64,000 bases of DNA. Source: Bacillota bacterium (GTDB taxonomy: Bacteria; Bacillota; TC1). Made by a program: the position numbers and the translations under genes. The first letter of the stretch is position 1, and each line of letters opens with the position of its first letter. Below are positions 14,246-45,375 of this stretch, piece after piece. The notes under the pieces are model-generated. The model saw only the letters and a list, made by a program, of their open reading frames with translations, was not told where the DNA came from and did no database searches. The stretch spans positions 62,001 to 126,000 of the forward strand of contig JAGXHY010000033.1 of assembly GCA_024635925.1 (NCBI GenBank). Direction: 5' to 3'.

Positions 14246-15532
14246 TTGCAATTAAAAATTGGAAATATTTACATCAAGGATGTTCAATTTTCTTCAAAGA
14301 CTGAAGTTAAAAATGGTATTCTAAATTTAAACAAGGATGAATTTTTAGCTGTGGCTGGAGATGATGAAAGAATTGCCTCTGTAGATGTTTATTTAGCAAA
14401 ACCAGGAGAAGAAACTCGCATTATTCCAGTGAAAGATGTCATTGAGCCTAGAGTTAAAGTAGAAGGCGATGGTGGAATTTTACCAGGATTTATGTGTGGG
14501 GTAGAGCAAGTAGGAAATGGTACTACGCATGTTCTAAAAGGAGCAGCTATTGTTACAACAGGTAGAATCGTTGGCTTCCAGGAGGGCATCATAGATATGA
14601 GTGGTCCAGGAGCAGAGTATACACCTTTTTCAAAAACCTACAATATTGTTCTTAAAGTTGAACCTATTGATGGAATAGGACAACATGAACATGAAGAAAT
14701 TGTCAGATTATCAGGCTTTAGAGCTGGTATCTATGTTGGTGAAGCGGGGAAAAATGTTACTCCAGATGATTATAAATCATTTGAGACTAAACCATTAGCT
14801 GATCAAATTAAAGAATATGACAATCTACCTAAAGTAGTTTATGTATATATGCTACAAACACAAGGATTGTTACACGATACTTATGTATACGGTGTGGATG
14901 CTAAGAAGATTATTCCTACATTCCTATATCCAACAGAAGTATTTGATGGAGCTGTTGTAAGTGGAAACTGTGTATCAGCTTGCGATAAAAATCCGACTTA
15001 TGTGCATATGAATCATCCAGTTATCGAAGAGTTATATGCTAAACATGGTAAAGAATTTAATTTCTTAGGTTGTATTGTTACAAATGAAAATGTTACTTTG
15101 ATGGACAAAGAACGTTCTTCAAATATGACTGCTAAATTAGTTGAGTTTTTAGGTGCAGATGCTGTTATAATTTCTGAGGAAGGATTTGGAAATCCAGATG
15201 CTGACTTAGTAATGAACTGTAATAAAATAACAAAAAAAGGCATTAAAACAGTATTAATTACTGATGAATATGCTGGACAAGATGGAGCATCCCAGTCGTT
15301 AGCAGATTCAACACCTGTTGGAGATGCCGTTATTACAGCTGGAAATGCAAACGAAACAATTACATTACCAGTAATGAAAAATGTTATTGGTTATCCTGAA
15401 GTTGCTGAAGTTATTGCAGGTGGATTCCAAGGAAGCTTAGCTTCTGATGGGAGTATAACTGTAGAAATACAAGCTATAACAGGAGCTACTAGTGAAGTTG
15501 GGTATGGCAAATTGTCAGCAAGAACTTATTAG
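14246..15532 (+). CDS. grdE: Glycine reductase component B subunits alpha/beta proprotein
   Basis: GrdE, the proprotein of the substrate-specific protein B, is cleaved autocatalytically at a Cys to give two subunits and a pyruvoyl cofactor that binds glycine as a Schiff base. The processing site VVSGNCVSACDKNP is present. I chose TTG at 14246 as the start, because the in-frame GTG at 14237 lies inside the AAGGAGG site (14231-14237). With this start the protein begins MQLKIGN, has 428 residues and places the reactive Cys at position 242, the number I recall for the Clostridium sticklandii protein. It acts with selenoprotein GrdB. Confidence 0.95.
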   Translation: MQLKIGNIYIKDVQFSSKTEVKNGILNLNKDEFLAVAGDDERIASVDVYLAKPGEETRIIPVKDVIEPRVKVEGDGGILPGFMCGVEQVGNGTTHVLKGAAIVTTGRIVGFQEGIIDMSGPGAEYTPFSKTYNIVLKVEPIDGIGQHEHEEIVRLSGFRAGIYVGEAGKNVTPDDYKSFETKPLADQIKEYDNLPKVVYVYMLQTQGLLHDTYVYGVDAKKIIPTFLYPTEVFDGAVVSGNCVSACDKNPTYVHMNHPVIEELYAKHGKEFNFLGCIVTNENVTLMDKERSSNMTAKLVEFLGADAVIISEEGFGNPDADLVMNCNKITKKGIKTVLITDEYAGQDGASQSLADSTPVGDAVITAGNANETITLPVMKNVIGYPEVAEVIAGGFQGSLASDGSITVEIQAITGATSEVGYGKLSARTY

Positions 15533-16044: not shown

Positions 16045-17346
16045 TTGGGAATTAAAATAGTACACTATATAAACCAGTTTTATGGTGGAATTGGTGGAGA
16101 AGATAAGGCTGATTATGCTCCTGAGAAAATCAGTGGTGTTAAAGGTCCAGGTATGGGTTTACAAGCCGCATTTGGTGACAAAGCTACTATTAGTTCTACT
16201 ATAATTTGTGGTGATTCATACTTCAATGAAAATATTGATGTAGCAACTGGTCTTATTCTTGAAATGATCAAAGAAGATAAGCCAGATGTATTCGTTGCTG
16301 GTCCAGCATTTAATGCAGGACGTTATGGTGTAGCTTGTGGCGCTGTTTGCAAAGCTGTATCTGAAAATTTAAATATTCCAGTTGTAACTGGTATGTATAT
16401 TGAAAACCCTGGTGCTGATATGTATAAGAAAGATGCTTATATGATTGAAACTGCTAATTCAGCGGCAGGAATGAAAGACGCATTGGCAAAAATTGCTGCT
16501 TTAGCATTGAAATTTGGTGAAGGTCAAGCTATTGGTACACCTGAATCAGAAGGATATATGCCTAGAGGCGTTAGAAGAAATATATTCTGTGAAGATAGAG
16601 GAGCTAAAAGAGCTGTTGATATGCTTATACAGAAATTAAAAGGTGAAGAAATTATTACTGAATATCCTATGCCAGTATTTGATAGGGTTGAACCTGCTAA
16701 ACCAGTTGTTGATGTTAGAAAAGCAAAAATTGCTATAGTTTCATCTGGTGGGCCAGTTCCAAAAGGGAATCCTGACCATATTGAAGCATCTAGTGCATCA
16801 AAATTTGGTAAATACTCAATAGCAGGGATAGATGATTTGAACCCTGAAAATGGTCAGACTGCACATGGTGGATATGATCCTGTGTATGCTAATCAAGATT
16901 TAGATAGAGTTATTCCAGTCGATATTTTAAGAGAAATGGAAAAAAATGGAGAAATTGGAAGTTTACATGATTTCTATTATTCTACAGTAGGTAATGGAAC
17001 TTCAGTTAATAACTCAAAAAAATTCGCAGCAGAAATAGCTAAGGACTTAATTGATTCAAATGTTGATGCTGTAATCTTAACCTCTACTTGAGGAACCTGT
17101 ACTCGTTGCGGTGCAACGATGGTAAAAGAAATTGAGCGCGCTGGTTTTCCAGTAGTACACATGTGTACTGTTGTGCCTATTTCATTAACTGTAGGAGCAA
17201 ATAGAATTATTCCTACAGTTGCTATTCCTTATCCTCTTGGAAATCCAGCTATGAATTTAACTGATGAAAAAGAACTAAGGAGAAAATTGGTGAAAAAAGC
17301 TTTAAAAGCTTTAGAAACACCAATTACAGAACAAACAGTATTTTAA
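16045..17346 (+). CDS. grdB: Glycine reductase component B gamma, selenoprotein (in-frame UGA)
   Basis: GrdB, the selenocysteine-containing 47-kDa-type subunit of protein B, attacks the pyruvoyl-bound glycine. The frame starts at TTG 16045 (RBS AGGAGG 16031-16036), reads through TGA at 17089-17091 (Sec349) and ends at 17346, giving 433 residues. The Sec lies in LTSTUGTCTRCGATMV, the UxxCxxC motif of glycine/betaine/sarcosine reductase B proteins. Glycine specificity is inferred from the adjoining grdE and from the N-terminus IKIVHYINQFYGGIGGE. It will be reported as two open frames if UGA is taken as stop. Confidence 0.96.
17104..17118 (+). other. Candidate SECIS hairpin of grdB
   Basis: CGTTGC (17104-17109) pairs with GCAACG (17113-17118) around a GGT loop, 13 nt after the UGA. 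The position and G-containing apical loop fit bacterial SECIS elements bound by SelB, although the bases also encode conserved residues. Confidence 0.6.
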
Positions 17347-17400
17347 TAAAAATGGGGATAGTCTTTTGGCTATCCCTAATTCTAAAGGAGGGTATTAAAT

Positions 17401-18939
17401 ATGAGTTTTCCGGTTATAAAAGGTGCTAGTTATAGCTTATTTCATACACCAGAAATGACAGTTCATCAAGGAAGTAATCAAACAACAGAAAGATATATGA
17501 ATCCCAATTCAGAGCATTTTAAAAACTTGCAAAAATCTTTGAGGAGTTTTGATGACTTTGTAAAATATCCACCAAACCAAGTATATATTGGTAATATTAA
17601 ACCAGATATGTTAAAGTGTCACAAAAGACCATGGTATGAACATCCTATGGAAGTAGCTTCAACTGATGGAAATTTTGGTGCTATTTATACTGAAGAAGAA
17701 TTGATTGCTTTGGTTAAGATTGTGGATGTGTTTGATTTAGTGGTTTTGGAAGAAAGTTTTCAAGCCGCAACAAAAGTTAAGTTGGAAAAAAGGCAAGAAT
17801 TGCAAATTATAGATAAATATCTTTCAAAACTAGATAACAAAGGTGTTGATTTTGCTGAGTTAGAGAGTATGGTAAATGAACAAGGTGCTGAAGGTATGTA
17901 TTATAGTGGTAGATTAGTTGGATGTGTAAAAAAAGCTCATGCTTTTGATGCGGTCCTAACAGCTCATGTGATGTTTGAAAATCTCGTGAGTAAGGCTACA
18001 GCAGTAGTTAATTTACTTCAAATGTTTACAAAGACTAAATTAAGACCTAGAGATATAGACTATATTATTGAAACCTCTGAGGAAGCATGTGGAGATATGA
18101 ATCAACGTGGTGGAGGTAATATGGCTAAAGCTATTGGAGAAATTTGTGGTTGTGTTAATGCGACTGGTAGTGATACTAGAAGCTTTTGTGCTGGACCTGT
18201 TCATGGTTTAGTACAAGCTGCGGCTTTAGTACAATCAGGGATATACAAGAATGTAGTTGTAGTTGCAGGTGGAAGTACAGCTAAGCTTGGTATGAATTCA
18301 AAGTCTCATATTGAAAAAAACATGCCAGCATTAGAAGATTGTTTAGGTACTTTTGCAATACATGTTTCTGAAAATGATGGTATTAGTCCTATTATAAGAA
18401 CGGATGTAGTTGGGAGACATACTATAGGCGCTGGTTCAGCACCTCAAGCTGTAATTACAGCAATAGTTACGGATCCTTTAGATAAAGCAAATATCAAATT
18501 AGATGATATTGATAAATTTTCGCCTGAATTACAAAACCCAGAAATAACTGTTCCTTCTGGCGCTGGAGATGTAACTCTTTCAAACTTGAAAATGATTGCA
18601 GCTTTAGGTGTTAAAAGAGGTGACTTCTTAAAAGAAGATATGGAAAGAATAGTAAATGAAAAAGGTATGACAGGTTATGCTCCAACACAAGGACATATTC
18701 CATCAGGAGTACCATATATTGGATTTGCTATACAAGAAATTATGAATAAGAAATTAAAGAAAGTAATGATAATAGGTAAAGGTAGTTTATTCTTAGGTCG
18801 TTTGACAAACTTATTCGATGGTGTTTCTTTTGTAATGGAAGAAAATACTGTTTCTGAAGAAGAAACTACGACCGTAAGCAAAGACGAAGTGAGAAGCATT
18901 GTAGCTGAAGCCTTAAAGAATTTAGCGAAAAGCTTATAA
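17401..18939 (+). CDS. grdC: Glycine reductase component C beta subunit
   Basis: GrdC, the larger subunit of protein C, which with GrdD converts the carboxymethyl selenoether on GrdA to acetyl phosphate. It has 512 residues and shows a ketoacyl-synthase/thiolase-like fold: EACGDMNQRGGGNMAKAIGE, GPVHGLVQAAALVQSG, and VVVVAGGSTAKLG. The C-terminal about 30 residues are a short acidic/helical tail. RBS AGGAGG lies 9-14 bp upstream of the ATG. It is 54 bp after grdB and 15 bp before grdD. The length agrees with known GrdC (about 510 aa). Confidence 0.94.
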   Translation: MSFPVIKGASYSLFHTPEMTVHQGSNQTTERYMNPNSEHFKNLQKSLRSFDDFVKYPPNQVYIGNIKPDMLKCHKRPWYEHPMEVASTDGNFGAIYTEEELIALVKIVDVFDLVVLEESFQAATKVKLEKRQELQIIDKYLSKLDNKGVDFAELESMVNEQGAEGMYYSGRLVGCVKKAHAFDAVLTAHVMFENLVSKATAVVNLLQMFTKTKLRPRDIDYIIETSEEACGDMNQRGGGNMAKAIGEICGCVNATGSDTRSFCAGPVHGLVQAAALVQSGIYKNVVVVAGGSTAKLGMNSKSHIEKNMPALEDCLGTFAIHVSENDGISPIIRTDVVGRHTIGAGSAPQAVITAIVTDPLDKANIKLDDIDKFSPELQNPEITVPSGAGDVTLSNLKMIAALGVKRGDFLKEDMERIVNEKGMTGYAPTQGHIPSGVPYIGFAIQEIMNKKLKKVMIIGKGSLFLGRLTNLFDGVSFVMEENTVSEEETTTVSKDEVRSIVAEALKNLAKSL

Positions 18940-18954
18940 TAGGGGGGTCTTGAG

Positions 18955-20118
18955 TTGGAAGATAAAATAAAATTCTATATAAAAGAAACTCTTGAGGAAG
19001 TGGCTCAAGCCATAGAAACTGGAACGTTTGGGAAGAAAACAAGAGTTGGGATTACAACACTAGGTAGTGAGCATGGAGAAATGGAAATTATTCGAGGTGC
19101 TGAACTTGCTAGTTATAGAAATAGTCATATTGAAGTTGTAGTGATTGGACATAATGTAACTACAGAACTTGAGTTAATTAAAGTTAACTCTGAAGAAGAA
19201 GCTCATGAGGTTATGAATAGATTGCTTGCAGAAGAAAAATTAGATGCTGCAGTTACTATGCACTATAATTTTCCTATTGGAGTTTCAACGGTAGGTAGAG
19301 TTATCACACCAGGTAGAGGAACAAAAATGTTCATAGCAAATACAACAGGTACTAGTCATACGAACAGAGCAATTTCAATGATTAAAAATACCATATCTGG
19401 GATAGCAGTAGCTAAAGCTTGTGGTATAAAAAGACCGACTGTTGGTATTTTAAATATCGATGGTGCTAGACAAGTTGAAAAGTCATTAAGAAAACTAGCT
19501 GAAAATGGATATGATATAGAATTTGTTGAGTCAGCAAGGAGCGATGGTGGAGTAGTGATGCGTGGTAACGACTTATTAATTGGAGTGCCAAACGTTATGA
19601 CCATGGATAGCTTAACAGGTAACGTAATGATGAAAATATTTGGTGCTTACGGTAGCGGTGGAGACTATGAATCAATTGGTTATGGTTATGGACCAGGTGT
19701 AGGTGAAGGTTATGATAAAATTGTTTGTATAATATCAAGAGCTAGTGGTTCAAACGTAATTGCTGGTGCTATTGGTTATGCTGCAGTTTGCGCATACGGT
19801 AATTTAACTGAAAAAGTTGATGATGAGTACTACAAAGCAAACTTAGCTGGACTAAAGCATACAGTTGAAGAAATCCTCGCTAAAGATACTAAAGGGTCTT
19901 CTAAGGATGATGATGGTGTTAAGATTCCTCCTGCAAAACCAACTTCAGCGGATATCAGCGGAATAGAAATTCTTGAACTTGATGATGCTGTGGAAAGTCT
20001 TTGGAAAGAGGATATTTATGCTACAAGCGGTATGGGCTGTACAGGACCTATTGTTATGCTAGCTGAAGAAGATAAAGAAAAAGCCATGGAAATACTTAAA
20101 GAAAAAGGTTTTCTCTAA
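18955..20118 (+). CDS. grdD: Glycine reductase component C alpha subunit
   Basis: GrdD, the catalytic subunit of protein C, holds the acetyl thioester and releases acetyl phosphate, which acetate kinase uses to make ATP. It has 387 residues from a TTG start (RBS GGGGGG about 18943-18948). The active Cys is in ATSGMGCTGPIVML near the C-terminus (about residue 362), as in known GrdD. The N-terminal two-thirds resembles the PlsX/phosphotransacetylase-like fold, with GSEHGEMEIIRGAELA and TPGRGTKMFIANTTGTSHTN. It is the last gene of the operon and is followed by a terminator. Confidence 0.94.
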   Translation: MEDKIKFYIKETLEEVAQAIETGTFGKKTRVGITTLGSEHGEMEIIRGAELASYRNSHIEVVVIGHNVTTELELIKVNSEEEAHEVMNRLLAEEKLDAAVTMHYNFPIGVSTVGRVITPGRGTKMFIANTTGTSHTNRAISMIKNTISGIAVAKACGIKRPTVGILNIDGARQVEKSLRKLAENGYDIEFVESARSDGGVVMRGNDLLIGVPNVMTMDSLTGNVMMKIFGAYGSGGDYESIGYGYGPGVGEGYDKIVCIISRASGSNVIAGAIGYAAVCAYGNLTEKVDDEYYKANLAGLKHTVEEILAKDTKGSSKDDDGVKIPPAKPTSADISGIEILELDDAVESLWKEDIYATSGMGCTGPIVMLAEEDKEKAMEILKEKGFL

Positions 20119-22611: not shown

Positions 22612-22639
22612 TTGCAAAATACTTGAGATTAATTATAAT
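22612..22639 (+). promoter_or_regulatory. Promoter of the purine-catabolic operon leader
   Basis: TTGCAA (22612-22617), 16-bp spacer, TATAAT (22634-22639). The predicted start near 22646 places both RNA switch units in the 5' leader. Confidence 0.8.
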
Positions 22640-22660
22640 AAGAGTAACTAGATAAGTATT

Positions 22661-22737
22661 TGACTTAGGTGCTGGGAACTGAAGTCACTAGTAGATAGGA
22701 ACATAGCCAGTATATAACTTGGTATATGTTCTTTTTT
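22661..22737 (+). promoter_or_regulatory. RNA switch unit 1: pseudoknot plus terminator
   Basis: Hairpin TGACTT (22661-22666) / AAGTCA (22682-22687) exposes CTGGGAACT in its loop. CTGG (22672-22675) can pair with CCAG (22707-22710). That CCAG lies inside the 5' arm of a terminator, GAACATA (22699-22705) / TATGTTC (22725-22731), with upper pairs CCA/TGG and a six-T tail. Pseudoknot and full terminator are mutually exclusive, as in a transcriptional ON riboswitch. The class is not certain; guanidine-IV (mepA) is one candidate by architecture. Confidence 0.72.
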
Positions 22738-22759
22738 AATATAAAAATCAGATAATCTT

Positions 22760-22835
22760 GGCTTTGGAACTGGGAACTAGAGCCGCTATAGATGGAACAA
22801 AGCCAGGGAATTTTTTCGGCTTATGTTCTTTTTTT
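22760..22835 (+). promoter_or_regulatory. RNA switch unit 2: pseudoknot plus terminator
   Basis: Second copy, 98 nt after the first. GGCTTT (22760-22765) pairs with AGAGCC (22779-22784), and the loop carries the identical CTGGGAACT. CTGG (22770-22773) pairs with CCAG (22803-22806). The terminator uses GAACA (22795-22799) and AAGCC (22800-22804) against GGCTT (22818-22822) and TGTTC (22824-22828), with a T-run after. Stems covary between copies while loop and TAGAT/GGAACA/GCCAG blocks are conserved. Confidence 0.72.
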
Positions 22836-22917
22836 ATACAAAAAAATAGTATTGAGTGCTTTTTGGTGATTAATTGTACATAAATAAAAGGGATATTATA
22901 TATAAGGAGTTATTGAA

Positions 22918-24222
22918 ATGTTAGTTGTAAAAGGTAAATATGTATTGACAAGTGATGGCTTAAAAAAGAATTATGCTTTAGTTATTGAAAGTGGGACTAT
23001 TACTGAATTAGTGCCAATTGACCAACTAAAAAAATATGAAGGAGTGGAAGTGATTGATGCTGTAAATGGTATTGTCACACCAGGATTCATCAATGCACAT
23101 ACACATATGTATGGTACAGTTGCTCATGGAATACATACTGAAAAAAAAATTAAAGATTTCACAGACTTCTTAGAAATTTTTTGGTGGCCAATGGTTGAAG
23201 ATCAAATTGATCATGAATTAATAAAAGCTACTACAGCATGGGCCTGTGTAGAATCAATAGACTCTGGAGTTACAACTATTGTTGACACTCTAGAAGCACC
23301 AAATTCTTTGATGGGTTGTTTAAATATTGAAAAAAACATTATTGATAAATTTGGCTTGCGAGCTTATTTGTCATTTGAGGCTAGCCAAAGAAAAGATGAA
23401 GAAAATTCTATCAATGGATTGAAAGAAAACTATAATTTTGCACTAGAAAATAAGGGTAATGATTTAGTGAAAGGTTTTATGTCTATACACACACTGTTTA
23501 CTTGTGATAAGGAATATATTTTAAAGGCTAAAAAAATGGCAGATGAAATTGGTTCTTTTTTCCATATGCATCTTTCAGAAAGTGTTTACGAACCAACTTG
23601 GTCTTTAAAAAAATATGGCAAAAGACCAGTGGAAGTATATGATGAACTAGGAATTCTTGATAATAAGATTTTAGCTTCACAAGTTGTCCAAATGTCTGAG
23701 GTTGAAAAAGAAATTTTGTTAAATAAAAAAGTTAATATGATACATATGCCATTATCTAATTGTGAAGTTGGTGGAGGTATAGCCCCTTACCCTGATTTTA
23801 TTGAAAAAAAAGGTAATGTTGGACTAGGATCTGATGGATATATTAATAACTTCTTTGAGATTATGAGAGGAGCTTTCTTAATACATAAAGCATACAGGCA
23901 AGATCCACAAGTAATGAATGGCAAAGAAGTCTTTGAAATGGCAACTAAAAGTGGTGCAATATCAATAGGCAGAAATGACTTAGGAGTAATTGAAGTTGGT
24001 GCAAAGGCTGACATAATAACTATAGAACTAGATACACCAACACCAATAAATGAACATAATGTTTATGATCAACTTATATTGTTTAGGAATCCTCAGAATG
24101 TGAGTAATGTATTGGTTAATGGTAATGTTTTAAAAAGAGATGGAAAATTAATAAATATAGATGTTAAAAAGATAAAAAAAGATTTAAGATTTGTTACTCA
24201 AAAACTTTGGGATAAACAATAG
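22918..24222 (+). CDS. SsnA-like amidohydrolase (ATZ/TRZ-type deaminase family)
   Basis: A 434-aa metal-dependent hydrolase of the amidohydrolase superfamily. Metal ligands are visible: HTH in NAHTHMYG, His in SIHTLF, His in HMHLSES and Asp in GLGSDG. The WWPMVEDQ segment and FFEIMRGAFLIHK parallel E. coli SsnA (WWRLD..., MFEEMKFAFFKH), a gene of the selenium/purine cluster. It probably deaminates or hydrolyses a purine-derived ring. Guanine or 8-oxopurine deaminase activity are alternatives. It is the first gene behind the tandem RNA switch, and the Mo-hydroxylase genes follow at 22 bp. Confidence 0.8.
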   Translation: MLVVKGKYVLTSDGLKKNYALVIESGTITELVPIDQLKKYEGVEVIDAVNGIVTPGFINAHTHMYGTVAHGIHTEKKIKDFTDFLEIFWWPMVEDQIDHELIKATTAWACVESIDSGVTTIVDTLEAPNSLMGCLNIEKNIIDKFGLRAYLSFEASQRKDEENSINGLKENYNFALENKGNDLVKGFMSIHTLFTCDKEYILKAKKMADEIGSFFHMHLSESVYEPTWSLKKYGKRPVEVYDELGILDNKILASQVVQMSEVEKEILLNKKVNMIHMPLSNCEVGGGIAPYPDFIEKKGNVGLGSDGYINNFFEIMRGAFLIHKAYRQDPQVMNGKEVFEMATKSGAISIGRNDLGVIEVGAKADIITIELDTPTPINEHNVYDQLILFRNPQNVSNVLVNGNVLKRDGKLINIDVKKIKKDLRFVTQKLWDKQ

Positions 24223-24244: not shown

Positions 24245-26599
24245 ATGTCATTATTTGAATATACCAGTAGTAAATATAATTTAATTGGTAAAGATATAAA
24301 GAGAGTTGATGGACTAGAAAAGGTAACTGGTAAAGCAATTTATGCAGCTGATTTATACAAGAAAAATATGTTGTATGGTGGTAATGTAAGAATAAAAGAA
24401 TATCCTGCGAAAATTAATAAAGTTAATATTGATGAGGCTATTAAAATACCTGGAGTAGTTGAAATTATTACATGTTTTGATAAAAAAGCTAAAAAACATA
24501 GTTGGGCAGACTATTGTTACTTAACTGATGAGGTTAAATTCTGCGGTGACGTAGTAGCAATTGTTGCTGCAGAGTCAAAGAAAACATTGGATAAAGCTAT
24601 AAAAAGCATTAAAGTAGAATATGAACTTCAAGAAGGTGTTTATACCATTGAAGATGCATTAAAAGAAGATGCACCAATTATAAGAGAAAAAGGTGTTGGC
24701 TTAGTAGATGGTATACCAAGTAAAGATAAAAAAGGTAACATCTTTAGAGACTCCTATTACCCAATTAGAAAAGGTGATGTAGAAGAAGGTTTTAAAAAGT
24801 GTGATGTAATAATAGAAAGAGAATTTACAGTTCCTTTTATTGATCAAGCATATATTGAACCTGAAGCTTGTATAGTTTATCATGATCCAAAAGATGGATC
24901 TATTACAGGTGAAGCCTCAGCCCAAAACCCATTTTTTACAAGAAGATACTTGGCAGATGCTAGTGATTGTAATATGAGTGAAGCAAGACTGATTCAAAGA
25001 ACGCTTGGTGGATCATTTGGCGGTAAAGAAGAAGGTGTTGGAGTTCAAATAGGTAGAGCTGCAATGCTTCATAAAGCAACAGGAAGACCGGTAAAGATGG
25101 TTAATACTCGTGAAGAATCATTAATAGACTCTTCAAAAAGACATGCTATTAACTTTAAATATAAAATAGGTGCTACCAAAGAAGGTAAGATATTAGCAAT
25201 TGAAGGAACTTTAGTTGCTAATTGTGGAGCATATAACAATCAAACACAATTTATGAACTGGAGAGCGTCTGTCCATTCAGCAGGTGTTTACGAAATACCT
25301 AATGTCAAAACTGATACATATGGTGTTTTCACAAATAATGTTCATGGTGGTGCAATGAGAGGTTATAGTTCACCTCAAGTAATTTTTGCTCAAGAACAAC
25401 TTATGAATGAATTGGCTAGAGCATTAGATATGGATAGTGTTGAATTAAGAAGAAAAAATATTATAAGACAAAATTCACGTACGGCAACAAATCAATTAAT
25501 TACAGAAGAAGTTATATTAGAAGAAATGATGGATGAGTTATTAAAAAGAACTGATTATTATAACAAAAAGAAAGAGTATGAAGCATTTAACAAAAATAGT
25601 GCAAAAATTAAAAAAGGTATAAATTTAGTTAGTAGTTTTAGAGGAGCAGGACTTGGAGCGGAAGGTGTTGATGCCAATGGTGCATTTATCCAAGCTACTG
25701 AAGATGGCTCAGTCATAATAAATACTGGCTTGGCAGAAAATGGACAAGGATTACAAACTGCATATGCCCAAATAGCTGCTGAACCACTTGGAATAACAAT
25801 AGATAAGATTCATTTTCATAGTGTAGATACTCATGCTATAGCTGATAGTGGAATGACTGTTGCTAGTAGAGGTACTACTATGGGAGCTCAATCAATGAAA
25901 TTAGCTGCTGAAAAGTTAGCAATGCTTTTTAAAGAGCATGCTGCTGAAAAATTAAATATTTCAATTGATAGAATTGCTTGTAAAGACAACTATTTTTACG
26001 ATATTGATGATTTTCCAGCTAATTATAGGAGTGAAAAAAGAGCGTCTTTTAAAGATATATGTAATGAAAGGTTATGGGATGGTAAGCAAATGGCTGTTTA
26101 CGAATGGTTCAGACCTGCTTTGAATGAATATGACCATCACACAGGACAAGGAAAGGCTTTTCCTACTTACACATATAATGCATGCATTGCTGAAGTTGAA
26201 ATTGATACAGAAATTGGAGAAATAAAAGTTAAAAAAGTAACATCTGGACTAGATTGTGGTAGAGTGATAAATCCTAATATGATTAAAGGTCAAATGTTTG
26301 GCGGAATTGTTATGGGTATTGGTTATGCTATTACAGAAGAAATAGAATTAAATAAAGGGAAAATATTAAACGACAATTTTGATAGTTATATTTTACCAAC
26401 TTCAATGGATGTTCCTGAAATGGATTTAGTACTATTTGAAAGTGAAACTAAAGAAGGAACTTTTGGTGCGAAATCTATTGGGGAACCATCTACCGAAGCG
26501 GTAGCCGCAGCAATTGCAGGTTCAGTCGGTCATGCTTTAAACAAGAATGTGAATCATCTGCCTTGCAGCCTTGAAAGCATACTTAAATATATTGATTAG
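24245..26599 (+). CDS. Molybdenum hydroxylase, Mo-cofactor subunit 1 (xanthine dehydrogenase type)
   Basis: A 784-aa molybdopterin-binding subunit of the xanthine dehydrogenase/aldehyde oxidase family. Family blocks: DGLEKVTGKAIYAADL at the N-terminus, GGSFGGKEEG (Moco loop), GGAMRGYSSPQ, and FGAKSIGEPSTEA near the C-terminus with the catalytic Glu. No fused Fe-S domain is present; FAD and 2Fe-2S subunits follow, giving an XdhA-B-C heterotrimer. It would hydroxylate a purine at C2, C6 or C8. Like other purine hydroxylases of purinolytic clostridia it might carry labile selenium, which the sequence cannot show. Confidence 0.9.
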   Translation: MSLFEYTSSKYNLIGKDIKRVDGLEKVTGKAIYAADLYKKNMLYGGNVRIKEYPAKINKVNIDEAIKIPGVVEIITCFDKKAKKHSWADYCYLTDEVKFCGDVVAIVAAESKKTLDKAIKSIKVEYELQEGVYTIEDALKEDAPIIREKGVGLVDGIPSKDKKGNIFRDSYYPIRKGDVEEGFKKCDVIIEREFTVPFIDQAYIEPEACIVYHDPKDGSITGEASAQNPFFTRRYLADASDCNMSEARLIQRTLGGSFGGKEEGVGVQIGRAAMLHKATGRPVKMVNTREESLIDSSKRHAINFKYKIGATKEGKILAIEGTLVANCGAYNNQTQFMNWRASVHSAGVYEIPNVKTDTYGVFTNNVHGGAMRGYSSPQVIFAQEQLMNELARALDMDSVELRRKNIIRQNSRTATNQLITEEVILEEMMDELLKRTDYYNKKKEYEAFNKNSAKIKKGINLVSSFRGAGLGAEGVDANGAFIQATEDGSVIINTGLAENGQGLQTAYAQIAAEPLGITIDKIHFHSVDTHAIADSGMTVASRGTTMGAQSMKLAAEKLAMLFKEHAAEKLNISIDRIACKDNYFYDIDDFPANYRSEKRASFKDICNERLWDGKQMAVYEWFRPALNEYDHHTGQGKAFPTYTYNACIAEVEIDTEIGEIKVKKVTSGLDCGRVINPNMIKGQMFGGIVMGIGYAITEEIELNKGKILNDNFDSYILPTSMDVPEMDLVLFESETKEGTFGAKSIGEPSTEAVAAAIAGSVGHALNKNVNHLPCSLESILKYID

Positions 26600-26613
26600 G
26601 TGAGGGGATTAAA

Positions 26614-27456
26614 ATGTTAAATTACTTTAGACCAAAAACAATTAAAGAATGCCTTGAATGTATAACTGATGATAGGGTATATATTGCAGGTGGTACAGAT
26701 TTATTAGTTGAAATGAGAAATGGACATGATCTTTCAAAAAAGACACTAATAGATTTGAGTCATATACCTGAATTAAAGGGTGTGAAAAAAATTGATGGAG
26801 GACTTGAAATAATGGCTTGTACTTCCCATGATGATCTTGTATTGAACAAGGATGTTAACAAAAGCCTGAAAGTTTTAAGTGATGCTTGTAGAACAGTAGG
26901 ATCTCCTCAAATAAGGAATATGGGCACAATAGGTGGTAGTATTGGAACTGCATCACCAGCTAGTGACCCAATGCCAGCTTTGATGTTAGCTGATGGTAGT
27001 GCTGTAATTATTAATAAAAAAGGTGAAATCAGAGAAGAAAAATTGGAAAAATTTGTAGTTAAACCTGGAATTACTACACTTAAAAATGATGAGTTAATAC
27101 TTTCTGTTAAAGTGAAATCATTGGAAGACTACAAACAAAGTTTCTTTAAAATTGGTAGAAGAAAAGCACTAGCCATTGCTAGGTTGAATTTTGCCATGGC
27201 TATATTAAAAAATAAAGATAACACTATTAAAGATATAAAAATTGTTGTTGGTGCAGCATTACCAGTAACAAAAAGATTTTATGACATAGAAAAACAATTA
27301 ATTGGAAAAAAGTTAACTGAAAAAATAATTGAAAAGATAAGTAAAGATATATCTGATCAAGTATTAGAAATTGCAGGACCAAGGAAATCAAGTGAATATA
27401 AAATACCTGTCATAAAAAATATTATTAGCAGAATGTTAAAAGATATGGAGGTATAA
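26614..27456 (+). CDS. Molybdenum hydroxylase FAD-binding subunit
   Basis: A 280-aa FAD subunit of the xanthine dehydrogenase family (CO-dehydrogenase medium-chain type). FAD-binding motifs are YIAGGTDLLVEMRNG (about 25-39) and IRNMGTIGGSIGTASPASDP (about 99-118). The C-terminal CO_deh_flav_C region follows. It carries electrons from the Fe-S subunit to NAD+ or another acceptor. It lies 14 bp after the Mo subunit and 2 bp before the 2Fe-2S subunit. Only one FAD subunit is present for three Mo subunits, so it may be shared. Confidence 0.9.
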   Translation: MLNYFRPKTIKECLECITDDRVYIAGGTDLLVEMRNGHDLSKKTLIDLSHIPELKGVKKIDGGLEIMACTSHDDLVLNKDVNKSLKVLSDACRTVGSPQIRNMGTIGGSIGTASPASDPMPALMLADGSAVIINKKGEIREEKLEKFVVKPGITTLKNDELILSVKVKSLEDYKQSFFKIGRRKALAIARLNFAMAILKNKDNTIKDIKIVVGAALPVTKRFYDIEKQLIGKKLTEKIIEKISKDISDQVLEIAGPRKSSEYKIPVIKNIISRMLKDMEV

Positions 27457-27458
27457 TT

Positions 27459-27950
27459 ATGAAACTTATGCTTAATATGACTATAAATAATGAAAAAATT
27501 AGTGTTGAAATAGAACCAGATAGTAGATTGCTTGATGTTTTGAGAGATGATTTAGGATTACTCGGAACTAAAGAAGGTTGTGGTGTTGGTGAATGTGGTG
27601 CTTGTACAGTTATTATTGATGGGAAAACAGCTAATAGCTGTGTTACGTTAGCAGCATCTATGGAAGGCTGCGATATTAAAACTATTGAATATTTATCAAA
27701 AAATGGGAAACTCCATCCAATGCAGAAATCATTTATTGATAATTCTGCTCTACAATGTGGTTTTTGCACACCTGGTTTTGTTTTAAGTGGTGTGAATTTA
27801 CTTGAAAGAAATCCTAATCCTACGGAAGAAGAAATAAAAGAAGGGATTTCAGGTAACATATGTAGATGTACTGGATATGAACAAATTGTCAAAGCAGTAG
27901 AAGATGTCAGAGATGAAAAATATATTAAGGACGGTGCCTGTGATGAGTAA
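27459..27950 (+). CDS. Molybdenum hydroxylase 2Fe-2S subunit 1
   Basis: A 163-aa subunit with the two canonical clusters. The plant-type 2Fe-2S motif is GCGVGECGACTVIIDG followed by SCV. The alpha-helical 2Fe-2S motif is QCGFCTPGF and ICRCTGY. Electrons pass from Mo through both clusters to FAD. It has AGGAGG-like GGAGG upstream and overlaps the start of the PreA-like gene, so the Mo/FAD/FeS/PreA genes are translationally linked. Confidence 0.92.
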   Translation: MKLMLNMTINNEKISVEIEPDSRLLDVLRDDLGLLGTKEGCGVGECGACTVIIDGKTANSCVTLAASMEGCDIKTIEYLSKNGKLHPMQKSFIDNSALQCGFCTPGFVLSGVNLLERNPNPTEEEIKEGISGNICRCTGYEQIVKAVEDVRDEKYIKDGACDE

Positions 27951-29166
27951 AAATTTTGAAAACGTTGATGTTTCAGTTGAATTTGGTGGGGTGAAACTAC
28001 AAAGCCCATTTATATTGTCATCAGGACCATTAACCTATGCTGCAGAAGGAATGATTAAAGCACATAAGAATGGTGTTGGTGCTGTAGTAACAAAAACTAT
28101 TAGAATTAATAGGGCGATAAACCCAGTTACTCATATTGGAACAATGAATGCAGATTCATTAGTAAATTGCGAAAAATGGGCTGATTCTGATCCTGAGGTT
28201 TGGTTTAATAGAGAAATACCTATGGCCAAAAAAGCAGGTTGTGTTGTAATTGCTAGTGTTGGTCATACTTTAGAAGAAGCTGAAGCTATTGTAGCACCTG
28301 CTGAAGCTGCTGGAGCAGATTTTATAGAGTTAGTTTCATATACAGAGATAGATATGTTACCTATGTTAGAAGCTACAATTGCAAGGGTAAAAATTCCAAT
28401 TATCTGTAAATTATCAAGCAACTATCCAGCTTGGAAAGATCCAGTTGAATGTGCTAGGAAATGTATAGAAATTGGTAAGGCAAATAATCATAAAGTAATG
28501 ATTGCTGCTATTGATTCAGTGGGACCAGTATTAGCGATTGATGTATATACACAAGGACCTAAAGTTAGTTCGGAAAATGGTTACGCATGGTTATCAGGTG
28601 GTGCAATAAGACCAATATCTATGAAAATCAACTATGAAATCATGAAAATGGATAGAAATATTATTTCTTATGGTATCGGTGGAGTGACAAAAGCTGAAGA
28701 TGCATTAGAATATTTAATGGTAGGTACTACTGGAGTGGGTATCTGCTCTATCGCAATAATTAAAGGTATTGAATATATCAGTAAGCTTATTGTAGATTTA
28801 AAGAAAAAAATGTCTGAATTAGGATATAGTAATATTGCTGAACTTAGAGGCTCAGCTATAGACAATCTTAGTAAAGAAACTTCAAATGAACCAACTGTTG
28901 GGGAACAAGAAAAAGATGTAGAGTCAGATGCAAAATTACAGTTTACTTTTAAAGAAGAAATTTGTATAAAATGTAACAAATGTGTGAAGATATGTTCATA
29001 TGATGCAAGAACATTAAAATTCCCTGAGATGAGAGTTGACAGAGACTTATGTAGAAATTGTGGAGCTTGCTCCTCTGTATGCCCGACTAGGGCACTAACA
29101 AGTGTGGCTGTTAAAAAGTTTACAAGAACGGATGATTTGCAAAATTACGTAGCTTATTTTAGCTAA
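27943..29166 (+). CDS. PreA-like dihydropyrimidine/dihydroorotate dehydrogenase with ferredoxin tail
   Basis: A 407-aa protein with an N-terminal FMN-binding TIM barrel of the dihydroorotate/dihydropyrimidine dehydrogenase type (VEFGGVKLQSPFILSSGP at start; GIGGVTKAEDALEYLMVGTTGV for the phosphate site). A C-terminal 2x4Fe-4S ferredoxin domain carries CIKCNKCVKIC and CRNCGACSSVC. The layout matches PreA, which reduces uracil or thymine. I use ATG 27943 (AAGGA upstream), because the longer frame to 27904 would overlap the preceding gene by 47 bp. In this cluster it may reduce a purine-derived ring. Confidence 0.85.
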   Translation: MSKNFENVDVSVEFGGVKLQSPFILSSGPLTYAAEGMIKAHKNGVGAVVTKTIRINRAINPVTHIGTMNADSLVNCEKWADSDPEVWFNREIPMAKKAGCVVIASVGHTLEEAEAIVAPAEAAGADFIELVSYTEIDMLPMLEATIARVKIPIICKLSSNYPAWKDPVECARKCIEIGKANNHKVMIAAIDSVGPVLAIDVYTQGPKVSSENGYAWLSGGAIRPISMKINYEIMKMDRNIISYGIGGVTKAEDALEYLMVGTTGVGICSIAIIKGIEYISKLIVDLKKKMSELGYSNIAELRGSAIDNLSKETSNEPTVGEQEKDVESDAKLQFTFKEEICIKCNKCVKICSYDARTLKFPEMRVDRDLCRNCGACSSVCPTRALTSVAVKKFTRTDDLQNYVAYFS

Positions 29167-35445: not shown

Positions 35446-36435
35446 ATGATGAAAAAAATTAAATATCTTATAATTACTTTAATATTAAGTTTCTTTTTAG
35501 TTGCATGCTCAAATGCTTCTGAAGAAACTACAAAAGATTTAAAAGTGGGTTTATTACTTACTGGACCTACAACTGATGGAGGATGGAATCAATCAGCTTA
35601 TGAGGGATTAGTTCAAATAGAGAATGAACTAGGAGCAGAAGTAAGCTTTGCGGAAAGCGTTCAAGCTACAGACTATGAAAAAACAATGAGAGATTATGCC
35701 AAAGATGGCTATGATGTTATTATTGGACATGGTTTCCAGTTTGTTTCTGCAGGAGAAGTTGTTGCTGAAGAGTATCCTGATACATTTTTTATTATTACAA
35801 GCGCAACAGTAACAAATAATAAAAACTTAGGATCAATAAATAATGCCTATACAGAAACAGGATTTTTGCAAGGAGCTTTTGCAGCCTTGATGACAAAAAC
35901 AAATGTTGTAGCTGGCATTGGTGGAATGGAAATACCACCAATTGTAAATGATCTAGCTGGCTTTGTGGCTGGTGCTAAGTATATCAATCCAAATGTAAAA
36001 GCATTAACAGCTGTAACAGGAAGTTTTGATGATGCCAACAAAGCACAAGAACAAGCTAAAGCTTTTATAGCTCAAGGTGCAGATGTCTTAATGGCAGATG
36101 CTAACCAAGCAGGTAGAGGAGTATTCGTAGCAGCTGAAGACAAAGGTCTATGGGCTATTGCTTCAATCTCAGCTGAGTATGATGTATATGATAAAGGATT
36201 AATTGCTTGTGGAACTGCTGACATGGCTAAATCAATATTTTTAGCAGCTAAAGAAGTTCAAGATGGAACTTATCAAGCAGCATACAAACAAAATGGTATT
36301 GCTGAAGGCATAGTTGATTTAACATTTAGCCCTACTTTAAAATCAGAAATACCCGCTGATGTTATTGAAAAGATTGACCAAATAAAAAAAGATATAGTTG
36401 ATGGAACAATCGAAGTAGACAAACTTATTAATTAA
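35446..36435 (+). CDS. BMP/PnrA-family substrate-binding lipoprotein 1
   Basis: A 329-aa lipoprotein of the Bmp family (TmpC/PnrA purine-nucleoside-binding type). The signal peptide ends at lipobox LVAC with Cys21. The mature domain shows TDGGWNQSAYEGL, DVIIGHGFQF, and AGRGVFVAAEDKGLWAI typical of the family. It would bind a purine nucleoside or base at the outer membrane face for an ABC importer. It is the first of three tandem paralogues. No ATPase or permease gene lies in the window. Purine ligand is inferred from family and location. Confidence 0.88.
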   Translation: MMKKIKYLIITLILSFFLVACSNASEETTKDLKVGLLLTGPTTDGGWNQSAYEGLVQIENELGAEVSFAESVQATDYEKTMRDYAKDGYDVIIGHGFQFVSAGEVVAEEYPDTFFIITSATVTNNKNLGSINNAYTETGFLQGAFAALMTKTNVVAGIGGMEIPPIVNDLAGFVAGAKYINPNVKALTAVTGSFDDANKAQEQAKAFIAQGADVLMADANQAGRGVFVAAEDKGLWAIASISAEYDVYDKGLIACGTADMAKSIFLAAKEVQDGTYQAAYKQNGIAEGIVDLTFSPTLKSEIPADVIEKIDQIKKDIVDGTIEVDKLIN

Positions 36436-36528
36436 ATTTTATGTTACTCTTTACTTTAATTAAGGGTAGATAACCACAAATAGCATGTGATCTCAATATA
36501 ATTAAGTGACTTTAAAATGCAGTTTAAA

Positions 36529-36555
36529 CTTAGGAGTTGCTTGGCAGCTCCTAAG
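36529..36555 (+). repeat. Hairpin between BMP genes 1 and 2
   Basis: CTTAGGAGTTGC pairs with GCAGCTCCTAAG (one G-U) around TTG. There is no T-run after it (TAAATAAAAAGG), so it is more likely an RNA stability or processing hairpin than a terminator. Confidence 0.5.
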
Positions 36556-36610
36556 TAAATAAAAAGGATTATCTTCTTTTTTCTTAAATGAAAAAAGTTT
36601 ATATTAAATC

Positions 36611-36658
36611 CTATAGAAATATAGGTAAAAGATATTAATTAAAATTTTTTTAGGAGGA
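36611..36658 (+). repeat. BMP leader repeat, copy 1
   Basis: A CCTATA/TATAGG hairpin (36611-36626) followed by ATTAATTAAA and AGGAGG. The same arrangement recurs before BMP gene 3 (37734 on), indicating that the leader was duplicated with the gene. Confidence 0.6.
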
Positions 36659-36663
36659 GGATT

Positions 36664-37656
36664 ATGATGAAAAAAGGATTATTATTAGTTATAGTTATTT
36701 TTGCAGCTTTTGTATCATTTGGTTGTGAAGATGCTGCTGAAAAAAAAGAAAATATAAAAGTAGCTTTAGCAATAACTGGTTCTAAAACTGATGGTGGTTG
36801 GAACCAAACAGCATATGAAGGTTTAGTGCAAATGGAAGAAAAATTAAATGCTAAAGTGACCTATAGTGAAAATGTTAACGCTAGTAACTATGAAAGAGTT
36901 CTAAGGGACTATGCTAAAGCTGGCAATGATGTTGTTATTGGACACGGCTATGAATTCTCTGATGCAGCTATGGCTGTAGGAGTAGAATATCCAGATACTT
37001 ACTTTATTGTTACTAGTACAACTGTAACTAATGAGAAAAATGTAGGTTCATTAAACAACAACTATTTACAAGCTGGATTTTTACAAGGAGCATTTGCTGC
37101 TTTAATGACAAAAACTAATGTTGTAGCTGGTGTTGGCGGAATGGAAATTCCACCTATCGTTAATGACATTAAAGGTTTTATTGCAGGAGCTAAATATATC
37201 AATCCAAACATAAAAGTATTAACAGCTTCTACAGGAAGTTTTGATGATGCCAATAAAGCTAAAGAACAAGCTATTGCATTTATTAATCAAGGTGCTGACA
37301 TAGTTATGGTTGACGCTGACCACGCAGGTAGAGGTGTTTATGTTGCTGCTGAGGAAAAAGGTGTTTGGGCTATTGGTTCAATTGCTGCTGAGTATGAGGC
37401 TTATTCTAAAAGCTTAATTGCTTGTGCAACTGCTGATATGGCTACTGCTTTATTCCAAACTATTGAACAAATTAACAATGGAACATATACTGCTGAGTTT
37501 AAATTAATGGGAGTTAAACAAGGAATTGTTGACTTTACATTTAGTCCAGTATTAGATTCACAAATTCCAAGTGATGTTAAAGATAAAATTGCTGAATTAA
37601 AAGAAATGTTAGCATCAAATGAAATTGATATGACAAAATTAGTTCTAGAACAATAA
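36664..37656 (+). CDS. BMP/PnrA-family substrate-binding lipoprotein 2
   Basis: A 330-aa paralogue of the preceding protein. The signal peptide starts MMKKGLLLVI and ends at lipobox SFGC (Cys21). TDGGWNQTAYEGL, DVVIGHGYEF and GAFAALMTKTNVVAGVGG are retained. The signal peptide and C-terminus (ELKEML...TKLVLEQ) are closer to copy 3 than to copy 1. Ligand-pocket regions differ at many positions (for example VDADHAGRG against ADANQAGRG), suggesting different ligand preference. RBS AGGAGGAGG precedes the ATG. Confidence 0.88.
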   Translation: MMKKGLLLVIVIFAAFVSFGCEDAAEKKENIKVALAITGSKTDGGWNQTAYEGLVQMEEKLNAKVTYSENVNASNYERVLRDYAKAGNDVVIGHGYEFSDAAMAVGVEYPDTYFIVTSTTVTNEKNVGSLNNNYLQAGFLQGAFAALMTKTNVVAGVGGMEIPPIVNDIKGFIAGAKYINPNIKVLTASTGSFDDANKAKEQAIAFINQGADIVMVDADHAGRGVYVAAEEKGVWAIGSIAAEYEAYSKSLIACATADMATALFQTIEQINNGTYTAEFKLMGVKQGIVDFTFSPVLDSQIPSDVKDKIAELKEMLASNEIDMTKLVLEQ

Positions 37657-37733
37657 TTTGCCACAAGATTTTACTTAAAAACTATGTATATTTACTCACT
37701 TGTTAAAAGATATAACAAGTAGTTTATAGAAAA

Positions 37734-37797
37734 CCTATATTAATATAGGTGATGACATTAATTAAATCAACCAAACCAATTAATAATTAGGAGGATA
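37734..37797 (+). repeat. BMP leader repeat, copy 2
   Basis: CCTATATTAATATAGG palindrome, then ATTAATTAAA and AGGAGG, matching the leader of the upstream paralogue. No clear terminator separates copies 2 and 3. Confidence 0.6.
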
Positions 37798-37800
37798 ATT

Positions 37801-38793
37801 ATGATGAAAAAAGGATTATTATTAGTCTTGACAATTTTTGCAGCCATTGCTTTAGTTGGATGTGGGGAAACTGCTGAAAACAAAGACACTTTTAAAGTTG
37901 CCTTAGCTCTTCCAGGTTCAAAAACTGATGGCGGTTGGAGCCAAACAGCTTATAATGGAATACTACAAATAGAAGAAAAACTTGATGCTGAAATTTCTGT
38001 AAATGAGAATACATTGCCAGCTGATTATGAAAAAATTCTAAGAAGTTATGCGAAGAATGGTAATGATGTTGTAATCGGACATGGTTTTGAATTTGGAGAT
38101 CCTGCATTAGCTGTAGCCGAAGAGTTTCCAGATGTTATTTTCATAGTTACTAGTACAAATGTAACAAATGAAACAAACGTTGGTTCAATCAATAACAACT
38201 ATTTACAAGCTGGATTCCTACAAGGAGCATTTGCAGCATTAATGACAGAATCAAATATTGTTGCTAACGTAGGCGGATTAAATATTCCACCAATCGTTAA
38301 TAATGCCCAAGGATTTGAAGCAGGTGCTAAATACATCAACCCTAACATTCAAGTTCTTTCAACTATTACTGGAAGCGGAGATGATGTAAATAAAGCTAAA
38401 GAGCAAGCTTTGACATTTATCAGCCAAGGAGCAGATATAGTTATGGCTAATGCTAATGCTGCAGGTAGAGGAGTTTACGTAGCAGCAGCTGAAAAAGGAG
38501 TATGGGCAATTGCATCAATCGCAGCAGAATTTGATACTTATGATAAATCATTAATAGCTGTTTCTAAAGCGGATATGTCTACAGCCATTTTCCAAACTGT
38601 AGAAAAAATTGAAAATGGTAATTACAAAGCAGGTTATGAGCTTATGGGAGTAAAACAAGGAATTGTTGGCTTTAATTATAGCCCGAATTTAGAATCAAAT
38701 ATTCCAGCTGATGTAAAAAGCAAAATGACCGAGCTTGAAGATAAACTTGGTTCTGGTAATATTGATGTAACTAAATTAATACCAGCACAATAA
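37801..38793 (+). CDS. BMP/PnrA-family substrate-binding lipoprotein 3
   Basis: A 330-aa third paralogue. The signal peptide MMKKGLLLVL ends at lipobox LVGC (Cys21). TDGGWSQTAYNGI has Ser for the Asn of copies 1-2, and the pocket region reads MANANAAGRG. Overall fold blocks (DVVIGHGFEF, GAFAALMTESN, IPPIVNNAQGF, AGAKYINPN) are kept. It probably arose by duplication of copy 2 including its leader. The role is as for copies 1 and 2; the ligand is unverified. Confidence 0.88.
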   Translation: MMKKGLLLVLTIFAAIALVGCGETAENKDTFKVALALPGSKTDGGWSQTAYNGILQIEEKLDAEISVNENTLPADYEKILRSYAKNGNDVVIGHGFEFGDPALAVAEEFPDVIFIVTSTNVTNETNVGSINNNYLQAGFLQGAFAALMTESNIVANVGGLNIPPIVNNAQGFEAGAKYINPNIQVLSTITGSGDDVNKAKEQALTFISQGADIVMANANAAGRGVYVAAAEKGVWAIASIAAEFDTYDKSLIAVSKADMSTAIFQTVEKIENGNYKAGYELMGVKQGIVGFNYSPNLESNIPADVKSKMTELEDKLGSGNIDVTKLIPAQ

Positions 38794-38909: not shown

Positions 38910-40118
38910 ATGGGAAATTACGATCAAAATATTAAGAAAATGGACAAGTATTTAGAAGATAATAAAGATGAAATGATATCATTTTTACAAGAATTCATCA
39001 GAATTAAAAGTATTACGTATGAAGAAAAAGAAGCTGTAGAATTTTTAGTTAAAAAAATGAAAGAATATGGATATGATGAAGTTAGAATTGACAAAGTAGG
39101 AAATGTTTTAGGGAGAGTTGGCAGTGGTCCTATAACTGTTATGTATGATGCTCATATTGATACAGTAGAATTAGGAGATGTTACTAAATGGGAACATCAT
39201 CCATTATCAGCAGAACTAGTTGATGGCTATATTTGGGGAAGAGGAACCGTAGATGATAAAGGACCTCTTGCCGCAATAGTATGGGCAGGAAAATTATTAA
39301 AAGACTTAAATCTTCAAGAAAAAATTACTATGTGGGTATCTGGATCTTTATCCGAAGAGGATGTTGAAGGTTCTTGTGTAGACGAAATGATGAAAGTTAA
39401 TCCTGACATTAAACCAGATTATTTAGTAGTAGCTGAAGCAAGTGAAATGCAAGTGATGAAAGGCAATAAAGGAAGAGCTATGATGAAAATAACTGTTCCT
39501 GGTGTTGCAGCTCATGCATGTGCTGGTCATACTGGCGACAATGCATTAATTAAGGCTTTACCAATTATAGCTGGTATAGATAAATTAACTGATCTAGGTG
39601 ATGATCCATTCCTAGGTAAAGGTACAATTGAAGTGACAAATGTTATTTGTCATACACCATCAAATAACACTATTCCAGGAGAAGTAACTATATATTGTGA
39701 TAGAAGGATTTCTTGTGGAGAATCCAAAGAAGCTCTTCTAGCAGAAATACAACCTTTCTTAGATTTAGCACCTGGAAGTACAGCATCAATTGATATGGAA
39801 TATTTTAATACTTGGAATGGCTATCCAGTTGCTGCTGAAGACTTTTTTCCTTCATGGTTAATGGAAGAAGATTCTAAAGTTATTACAGCTGGTGTTGAAG
39901 CATTTGAAATGTGTTTCAAACAAAAATGTAATGTAGGGGTCTGGCCTTTTAGCACTAATGCAACTACATTATGTGGAAAACATGGGATACCAACAGTTGG
40001 CTTTGGTCCATCTGTTGAAGACCTTTGTCATTCAGATAAAGAAAAAATAAGTGTGGTAGAATATGTTGATGCGGCTAAGTTTTATGCTTTGCTAGCATTA
40101 ACCATTTCAAATAAATAA
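38910..40118 (+). CDS. ygeY: YgeY family selenium-metabolism-linked M20 hydrolase
   Basis: A 402-aa zinc peptidase-like hydrolase of the M20 family, YgeY subgroup. Metal-binding landmarks: MYDAHIDTVELG, WGRGTVDDKGPLAA, SGSLSEEDVEG, VVAEASEMQ, and the C-terminal LCHSDKEKIS. YgeY homologues belong to the anaerobic urate/purine cluster, where the enzyme is thought to remove a carbamoyl or ureido-type group from a 2,3-diaminopropionate derivative. RBS AAGAAGAGGG lies just upstream. ygeW follows after 23 bp, as in other bacteria. Confidence 0.93.
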   Translation: MGNYDQNIKKMDKYLEDNKDEMISFLQEFIRIKSITYEEKEAVEFLVKKMKEYGYDEVRIDKVGNVLGRVGSGPITVMYDAHIDTVELGDVTKWEHHPLSAELVDGYIWGRGTVDDKGPLAAIVWAGKLLKDLNLQEKITMWVSGSLSEEDVEGSCVDEMMKVNPDIKPDYLVVAEASEMQVMKGNKGRAMMKITVPGVAAHACAGHTGDNALIKALPIIAGIDKLTDLGDDPFLGKGTIEVTNVICHTPSNNTIPGEVTIYCDRRISCGESKEALLAEIQPFLDLAPGSTASIDMEYFNTWNGYPVAAEDFFPSWLMEEDSKVITAGVEAFEMCFKQKCNVGVWPFSTNATTLCGKHGIPTVGFGPSVEDLCHSDKEKISVVEYVDAAKFYALLALTISNK

Positions 40119-41143: not shown

Positions 41144-41158
41144 TTCTAGGAGATAAAA

Positions 41159-42559: not shown

Positions 42560-42576
42560 GTTTCTAAGTATTTTTA

Positions 42577-42610
42577 GAAAGAAGTGCAATTGTACTTCTT
42601 TCTTTTTTTT
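42577..42610 (+). terminator. Terminator after the second amidohydrolase
   Basis: Nine-bp stem GAAAGAAGT (42577-42585) / ACTTCTTTC (42594-42602), then eight T. Confidence 0.92.
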
Positions 42611-42613
42611 GTC

Positions 42614-42642
42614 TTAATTAGTAAGCTGACTTATGGTATAAT
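42614..42642 (+). promoter_or_regulatory. Promoter of the PLP lyase/hydA unit
   Basis: Perfect TATAAT (42637-42642) with a weaker TTAATT -35 (42614-42619) and 17-bp spacing, 34 bp before the start codon. Confidence 0.65.
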
Positions 42643-42675
42643 TATCAAGTACAATAATTTAAAGGAGTGAACTAA

Positions 42676-43920: not shown

Positions 43921-43930
43921 GAGGTATAAC

Positions 43931-45280: not shown

Positions 45281-45296
45281 TTTTATATATATATAG

Positions 45297-45324
45297 TTGC
45301 AAATTAAAAAAATATAAGTATAAT
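45297..45324 (+). promoter_or_regulatory. Promoter of the carbamate kinase gene
   Basis: TTGCAA (45297-45302), 16-bp spacer, TATAAT (45319-45324). Confidence 0.8.
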
Positions 45325-45340
45325 TAATGTATATATAAAT

Positions 45341-45375
45341 AAAGGCATACTTCCATACAGTAGTGTGCCTTTTGA
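45341..45375 (+). promoter_or_regulatory. Leader hairpin/attenuator before carbamate kinase
   Basis: AAAGGCATAC (45341-45350) pairs over 10 bp (one G-U) with GTGTGCCTTT (45363-45372), followed by TTGAATTTT. It lies between the promoter and the start codon, so it could attenuate transcription; alternatively it is a weak terminator of the hydA unit. Confidence 0.55.

Follow-up and report, generated by a model that had tools for sequence, protein, structure and literature searches.

A tandem riboswitch candidate with a guanidine-IV-like layout upstream of a putative reductive urate operon

The guanidine-IV riboswitch (GGAM-1, mepA motif) is a described RNA whose architecture resembles that of the element reported here, and it has been established experimentally as an ON switch that acts by antitermination (PMC7736828, PMC11611296). 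The orphan Gd4v shows that guanidine-IV variants with other ligands exist (PMC9788692). Among RNAs that control purine-oxidation genes, the xanthine-I riboswitch (NMT1 motif) binds xanthine and urate (PMC7373994). A published survey contains neither tandem guanidine-IV nor tandem xanthine-I riboswitches, and it describes two complete units in series as giving a steeper response (PMC9481103). An anaerobic reductive urate pathway was characterised recently (PMC12507026). Gut bacteria that degrade urate anaerobically influence the uric acid of their host, and little is known about how this degradation is regulated; an RNA that switches a urate operon could serve as a genetic sensor for metabolites of the pathway.

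Anatomy of the tandem element

The window, that is, the whole 64,000-nucleotide stretch of Bacillota DNA that was analysed, contains a 31-nt direct repeat with a spacing of 98 nt (22660-22690 and 22758-22788, 74% identical). Each repeat is followed by an intrinsic terminator, which bears out a sequence-only reading of this DNA that had placed two consecutive units here, 98 nt apart. In both units a hairpin (P1), whose loop carries GGNNCUGGGAACU, is joined by a linker of 18-20 nt to GCCAG in the 5' arm of the terminator, which ends in 6-7 T. The features are as follows.

22612-22639, + strand: sigma-70-like promoter, TTGCAA-16-TATAAT, 10/12 match
22662-22686, + strand: hairpin P1 of unit 1, with GACTT/AAGTC, an A-G mismatch, GGT/ACT and heptaloop GCTGGGA; P1 pairs kept in 11/11 copies
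22672-22675, + strand: CUGG, loop half of the unit 1 pseudoknot, partner 22707-22710; paired in 11/11 copies, U-A to C-G in genomes G083 and G119
22698-22737, + strand: intrinsic terminator of unit 1, 5' arm holding CCAG 22707-22710; covarying stem
22760-22784, + strand: hairpin P1 of unit 2, with GGCTT/GAGCC, U-A at the mismatch site, GG/CT and a loop holding ACTGGGA
22770-22773, + strand: CUGG, loop half of the unit 2 pseudoknot, partner 22803-22806
22794-22835, + strand: intrinsic terminator of unit 2, 5' arm holding CCAG 22803-22806

In each unit, CTGG in the P1 loop is complementary to its partner CCAG, which lies within the 5' arm of the terminator stem or at the top of that stem. Because CCAG is shared by the loop pairing and the terminator stem, the two folds are mutually exclusive; the use of terminator-arm bases by the CTGG-CCAG pairing had been noted in the earlier reading and is seen in both units. 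Above a 1x1 mismatch, GG...AC(U/C) adds 2-3 pairs and closes an apical heptaloop, N-C-Y-G-G-G-A, so that the contact takes the form of a kissing interaction between the heptaloop and the terminator 5' half. The terminators had folding energies of -11.8 kcal/mol (22698-22740, z -3.6) and -12.9 kcal/mol (22794-22838, z -3.8) in units 1 and 2, respectively. A pairing of loop GGAAC with GUUCU in the terminator 3' arm was also considered and dropped, since the terminators of G003, G083 and G119 do not contain that sequence.

The two units have diverged. Unit 1 has A12/G26, U15, G16 and U62 where unit 2 has U12/A26, A15, A16 and G62, and these differences at positions 12, 15, 16, 26 and 62 are identical in three species, indicating that the duplication predates the species split and that the difference has been maintained.

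Relatives, covariation and the upstream side

Using a covariance model built from four copies, we found the element in three congeners, with two copies in G005, two in G002 and three in G003, all before the same operon; matches at this locus in the sister genomes had E values of 1e-15 to 1e-18. A nine-copy model searched against 399 genomes of the phylum returned one further real member, a single copy between glyA and ygeY in G083, which belongs to another class and whose ygeY start is 52% identical over 33 aa to that of the window. One more copy between glyA and ygeY came to light in G119 (L173:14912-14995, 212 nt 5' of the listed ygeY start) when the surroundings of the ygeY genes most similar to that of the window were scanned with filters off; in G119, ygeY is followed by genes for a carbamoyltransferase, a flavodoxin and an ABC permease. 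This copy scores weakly (23 bits, E 0.0048 over 100 kb without filters), and its assignment rests on context and a descriptor match. In total, we count 11 copies in six genomes from two classes. The sequence-only reading had staked its case on homologues with covarying stems in related genomes, and both the homologues and the covariation were found.

We also searched 84,980 species genomes with a fixed strict pattern, which matched 28 stretches. Four of these had the second block and a terminator (G005, G002, G003 and G083), and the rest were rejected for want of GCCRG plus a terminator. The G119 copy carries GGGAACC rather than GGGAACT and so escaped the pattern, which makes the known range a lower bound. 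A structural descriptor run on the full 1.2 Mb of retrieved sequence matched nothing but copies of the element and a single chance site (L154). Other matches from the phylum search (L032, L033 and L035-L039) proved to be terminators or coding regions that lack the P1 core and loop contact and were discarded, as were two weak matches, one inside a LacI-type gene (G003:C11) and one inside ygeY (L176). Plasmid and phage collections contained no similar DNA. The purine-cluster regions of 19 other genomes yielded no copy by covariance model with default filters, implying that the pathway does not need the element.

The stems vary in sequence and remain paired, between the two units as the earlier reading had observed and also across genomes. 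For P1 plus terminator in ten copies, 94% of cells were paired, against less than 50% in slid registers, and 7 pairs had changed on both sides, compared with 2.9 in shuffles (0/500 shuffles as high). These counts come from an alignment fitted to the model, and the 11 known copies represent about three independent lineages. P1 plus pseudoknot reached 96% paired in ten copies, including the U-A to C-G change in the pseudoknot. The 4-bp loop-terminator helix is paired in every copy (11/11), with CUGG/CCAG replaced by CCGG/CCGG in the other class (G083 and G119); this double-sided change, occurring in two related genomes, is probably a single event. With G119 added by hand, P1 was paired in all 11 copies, including a new U-A to C-G change, and an inner G-U became G-C. 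Terminator stems vary between genomes (GAACAUA, GCAUAUG or AAGCGC), the complement always changing along with them, and the terminator loop is a plain 3-8 nt throughout. CCRG falls within the terminator 5' half in 11/11 copies, and the two pairings are exclusive in each. Alignments A5 and A7, which put the terminator arm or GCCAG in the wrong place for G003 and G083, were left out of these counts; A8 misplaces the G119 terminator, and G119 was therefore counted from a hand segmentation. Only part of the TAGAT/GGAACA/GCCAG block proposed by the sequence-only reading is general: GCCAG recurs as a conserved 3' block, GCC(A/G)G, whereas TAGAT is not conserved beyond close relatives and GGAACA is simply terminator arm, with GCATATG in its place in G003 and AAGCGC in G083 and G119.

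The promoter lies directly 5' of unit 1. Its 10/12 score is unremarkable in itself, as 5 such sites were found where 4.9 were expected, and what supports the "good promoter" of the earlier reading is that both hexamers (-35 and -10) are kept in G005 and G002 while the adjacent bases diverge. Wherever the upstream gene was seen, the element lies downstream of glyA, with two small open reading frames (ORFs) between them in the congeners. The position after glyA, together with the 41-codon and 25-codon ORFs that overlap unit 2, would fit ordinary tandem terminators of glyA or leader-peptide attenuation, both operating without ligand sensing. Such an explanation is very improbable: a genus-conserved promoter stands directly before unit 1, no ORF of at least 20 codons covers unit 1, and plain terminators would not be expected to preserve a P1 loop together with a covarying contact of 4 bp. 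Farther upstream, the window contains a glycine reductase operon (grd genes, 16045-20118) with a SECIS element (RF01990, 17092-17129), just before glyA and the tandem element; a lysine riboswitch (RF00168, 112 bits) lies at 62686-62850.

The downstream operon and a putative ON switch

The genes that follow the tandem element are listed below.

22918-24222, + strand: ssnA-like amidohydrolase, opening the operon; highest-scoring NCBIfam model PRK07203 SsnA, 279 bits, below the cut-off of 444
24245-27950, + strand: xanthine-dehydrogenase-type molybdenum, FAD and iron-sulfur subunits, all below equivalog cut-offs
27904-29166, + strand: dihydropyrimidine-dehydrogenase-like reductase with a ferredoxin domain (UacX-like); PreA 138.6 bits
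29185-34630, + strand: two more molybdenum hydroxylases (xdh family) and an iron-sulfur subunit
35446-38793, + strand: three BMP-type ABC substrate-binding lipoproteins; the first ABC_BMP_B6, 103 bits, the others resembling it
38910-40118, + strand: YgeY hydrolase, 393.9 bits, above the NCBIfam cut-off of 321
40142-46333, + strand: carbamoyltransferase, SsnA/deaminase-like amidohydrolase, YgeX-like PLP lyase, hydantoinase (HyuA) and carbamate kinase

A flavodoxin is also among the operon genes, listed between the molybdenum hydroxylases and the lipoproteins. The three consecutive lipoprotein paralogues, the second of which has no NCBIfam match, are possibly the binding proteins of purine or nucleoside importers. 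As judged from the predicted proteins, the gene set matches the reductive urate pathway, including UacX, described in PMC12507026; as many assignments fall below equivalog cut-offs, the substrates are deduced from the gene set as a whole. In G003, ssnA looks truncated or decayed (L024:8211-8540) behind the three units, which also precede transporter, ygeX, hyuA and carbamate kinase genes. The element thus tracks the pathway rather than one gene, which supports a role in pathway control.

A transcriptional riboswitch is generally expected to show a structured, conserved leader before a coherent set of genes, an aptamer fold and a terminator that exclude each other, and selective binding of a ligand that alters expression; the first two are present here, and the third is part of the proposal. 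We consider it fairly probable that each of the two units acts in cis as a transcriptional ON riboswitch whose ligand is a metabolite of purine degradation. The tandem ON switch before a purine operon suggested by the sequence-only reading is supported by conservation, covariation and operon content, and it keeps the standing of a candidate. We infer that switching would be co-transcriptional. P1 would form as the RNA emerges from the polymerase; with ligand present, its 7-nt loop would kiss the freshly transcribed CC(A/G)G of the terminator 5' arm and trap it, so that the terminator could not close and the polymerase would read on, whereas with ligand absent the terminator would close. With two units in series, the polymerase would have to get past both terminators, which would tighten the OFF state and steepen the response, and the urate operon would probably be transcribed only when a small molecule is present, likely one that arises in purine breakdown. 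Because the operon appears to encode the reductive urate pathway, the ligand would most likely be urate or a neighbouring purine-degradation product (2,8-dioxopurine, xanthine or guanine).

Given that units 1 and 2 have diverged and are kept distinct in three species, they might instead each recognise a ligand of its own from the urate pathway and together work as an AND gate with two inputs, built on a guanidine-IV-like kissing-loop terminator scaffold recruited to sense purine breakdown, an idea that we regard as speculative and unlikely. The targets of ANTAR proteins are dual hexaloops. A conserved hairpin loop repeated beside a terminator would also suit an RNA-binding protein that recognises this P1 loop and keeps the terminator from acting, in the manner of PyrR or ANTAR regulators. 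We doubt this strongly: the P1 loop is unlike the dual hexaloop, a protein switch has no need of covarying complementarity between loop and terminator, no protein-binding leader in Rfam matched, and a non-systematic look at the linked genes showed no RNA-binding regulator.

Comparison with known RNAs

The riboswitch candidate and guanidine-IV share a layout of two hairpins, the second an intrinsic terminator, the loop of the first contacting a conserved ...G-U of the terminator's 5' half through a loop-loop pseudoknot; ON control by antitermination is proven for guanidine-IV and proposed here. With the register taken from published residue numbers (PMC11611296, PMC7736828) rather than from a profile alignment, contacts C30-G71 and A29-U72 of the Clostridium botulinum RNA (PMC11611296) correspond to C17-G61 and N16-U62 of the element. 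The C-G contact is present in 11/11 copies. The A-U contact, in contrast, is A-U in just 2/11, G-U in 5/11 and unpaired in 4/11 (A-G in three), and it is absent from unit 2, where the U is missing. The G that is essential in guanidine-IV (G72 of L. lactis) likewise has no conserved counterpart at the distance mapped by residue numbers, five bases 3' of the U. The element is further distinguished by an invariant 4-bp CYGG/CCRG helix, by tandem and triple copies, an arrangement absent for guanidine-IV from the published survey (PMC9481103), and by its position between glyA and a urate operon, without the sugE, mepA, GNAT or PRK07324 genes of the known class and its variant.

These features bear on whether the element is a diverged member of the guanidine-IV class, or else represents a third branch within a guanidine-IV/Gd4v superfamily, and senses guanidine or a guanidine-like compound made or used in the pathway. 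We hold this to be possible and rather unlikely. Of the guanidine-IV membership advanced by the sequence-only reading, the architecture and the place where the loop meets the terminator stand, while the A-U contact, missing from most copies, the gene context and the survey speak against it; for the same reasons, the link between guanidine and purine breakdown that it had raised is not established. Should the element descend from the guanidine-IV scaffold, it would be a further case of this scaffold changing its ligand, and the small, clean set of sequences makes the ligand range of guanidine-IV-like RNAs testable. Gd4v similarly combines a guanidine-IV-like layout with changed specificity, but it has an extra hairpin that is missing here and is associated with other genes (PRK07324 or GNAT). 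Loci fetched for comparison with guanidine-IV and Gd4v (SMR loci with PF00893 genes, PRK07324 genes and plasmid sugE) contained guanidine-I switches only. Two of the fetched regions (L115 and L118), whose SMR transporter genes belong to different families, share a terminator-like element about 100 nt 5' of the SMR gene, CCGCCGGGTACGT...TTCCANTAGGCC...GGAA...TGGACGTRCCC followed by a T-run, with no Rfam match at E 0.01.

The Rfam covariance-model search that had been proposed along with the sequence-only reading was run on the window and its relatives, and no family matched the element; a scan of the region up to E 5 gave chance matches only, from a set of families that may not include guanidine-IV. 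The ssnA RNA (RF03031) resembles the element in being conserved and in lying next to a purine cluster of this type, as found in L140, yet it is a 48-nt hairpin with other conserved bases and a model that contains no terminator. Its model had no match in the window even at E 5, whereas the positive control, L140, was matched. In L140, this Rfam orphan lies beside a ygeW gene (14459-14506), and what looks to be a second, partial copy just upstream (14420-14455) suggests that this different RNA, too, occurs in tandem at a purine cluster. Xanthine-I regulates purine-oxidation genes, as the element probably does, but no Rfam model of any kind matched here. Taken together, the comparisons point to an undescribed riboswitch candidate that would work like guanidine-IV.
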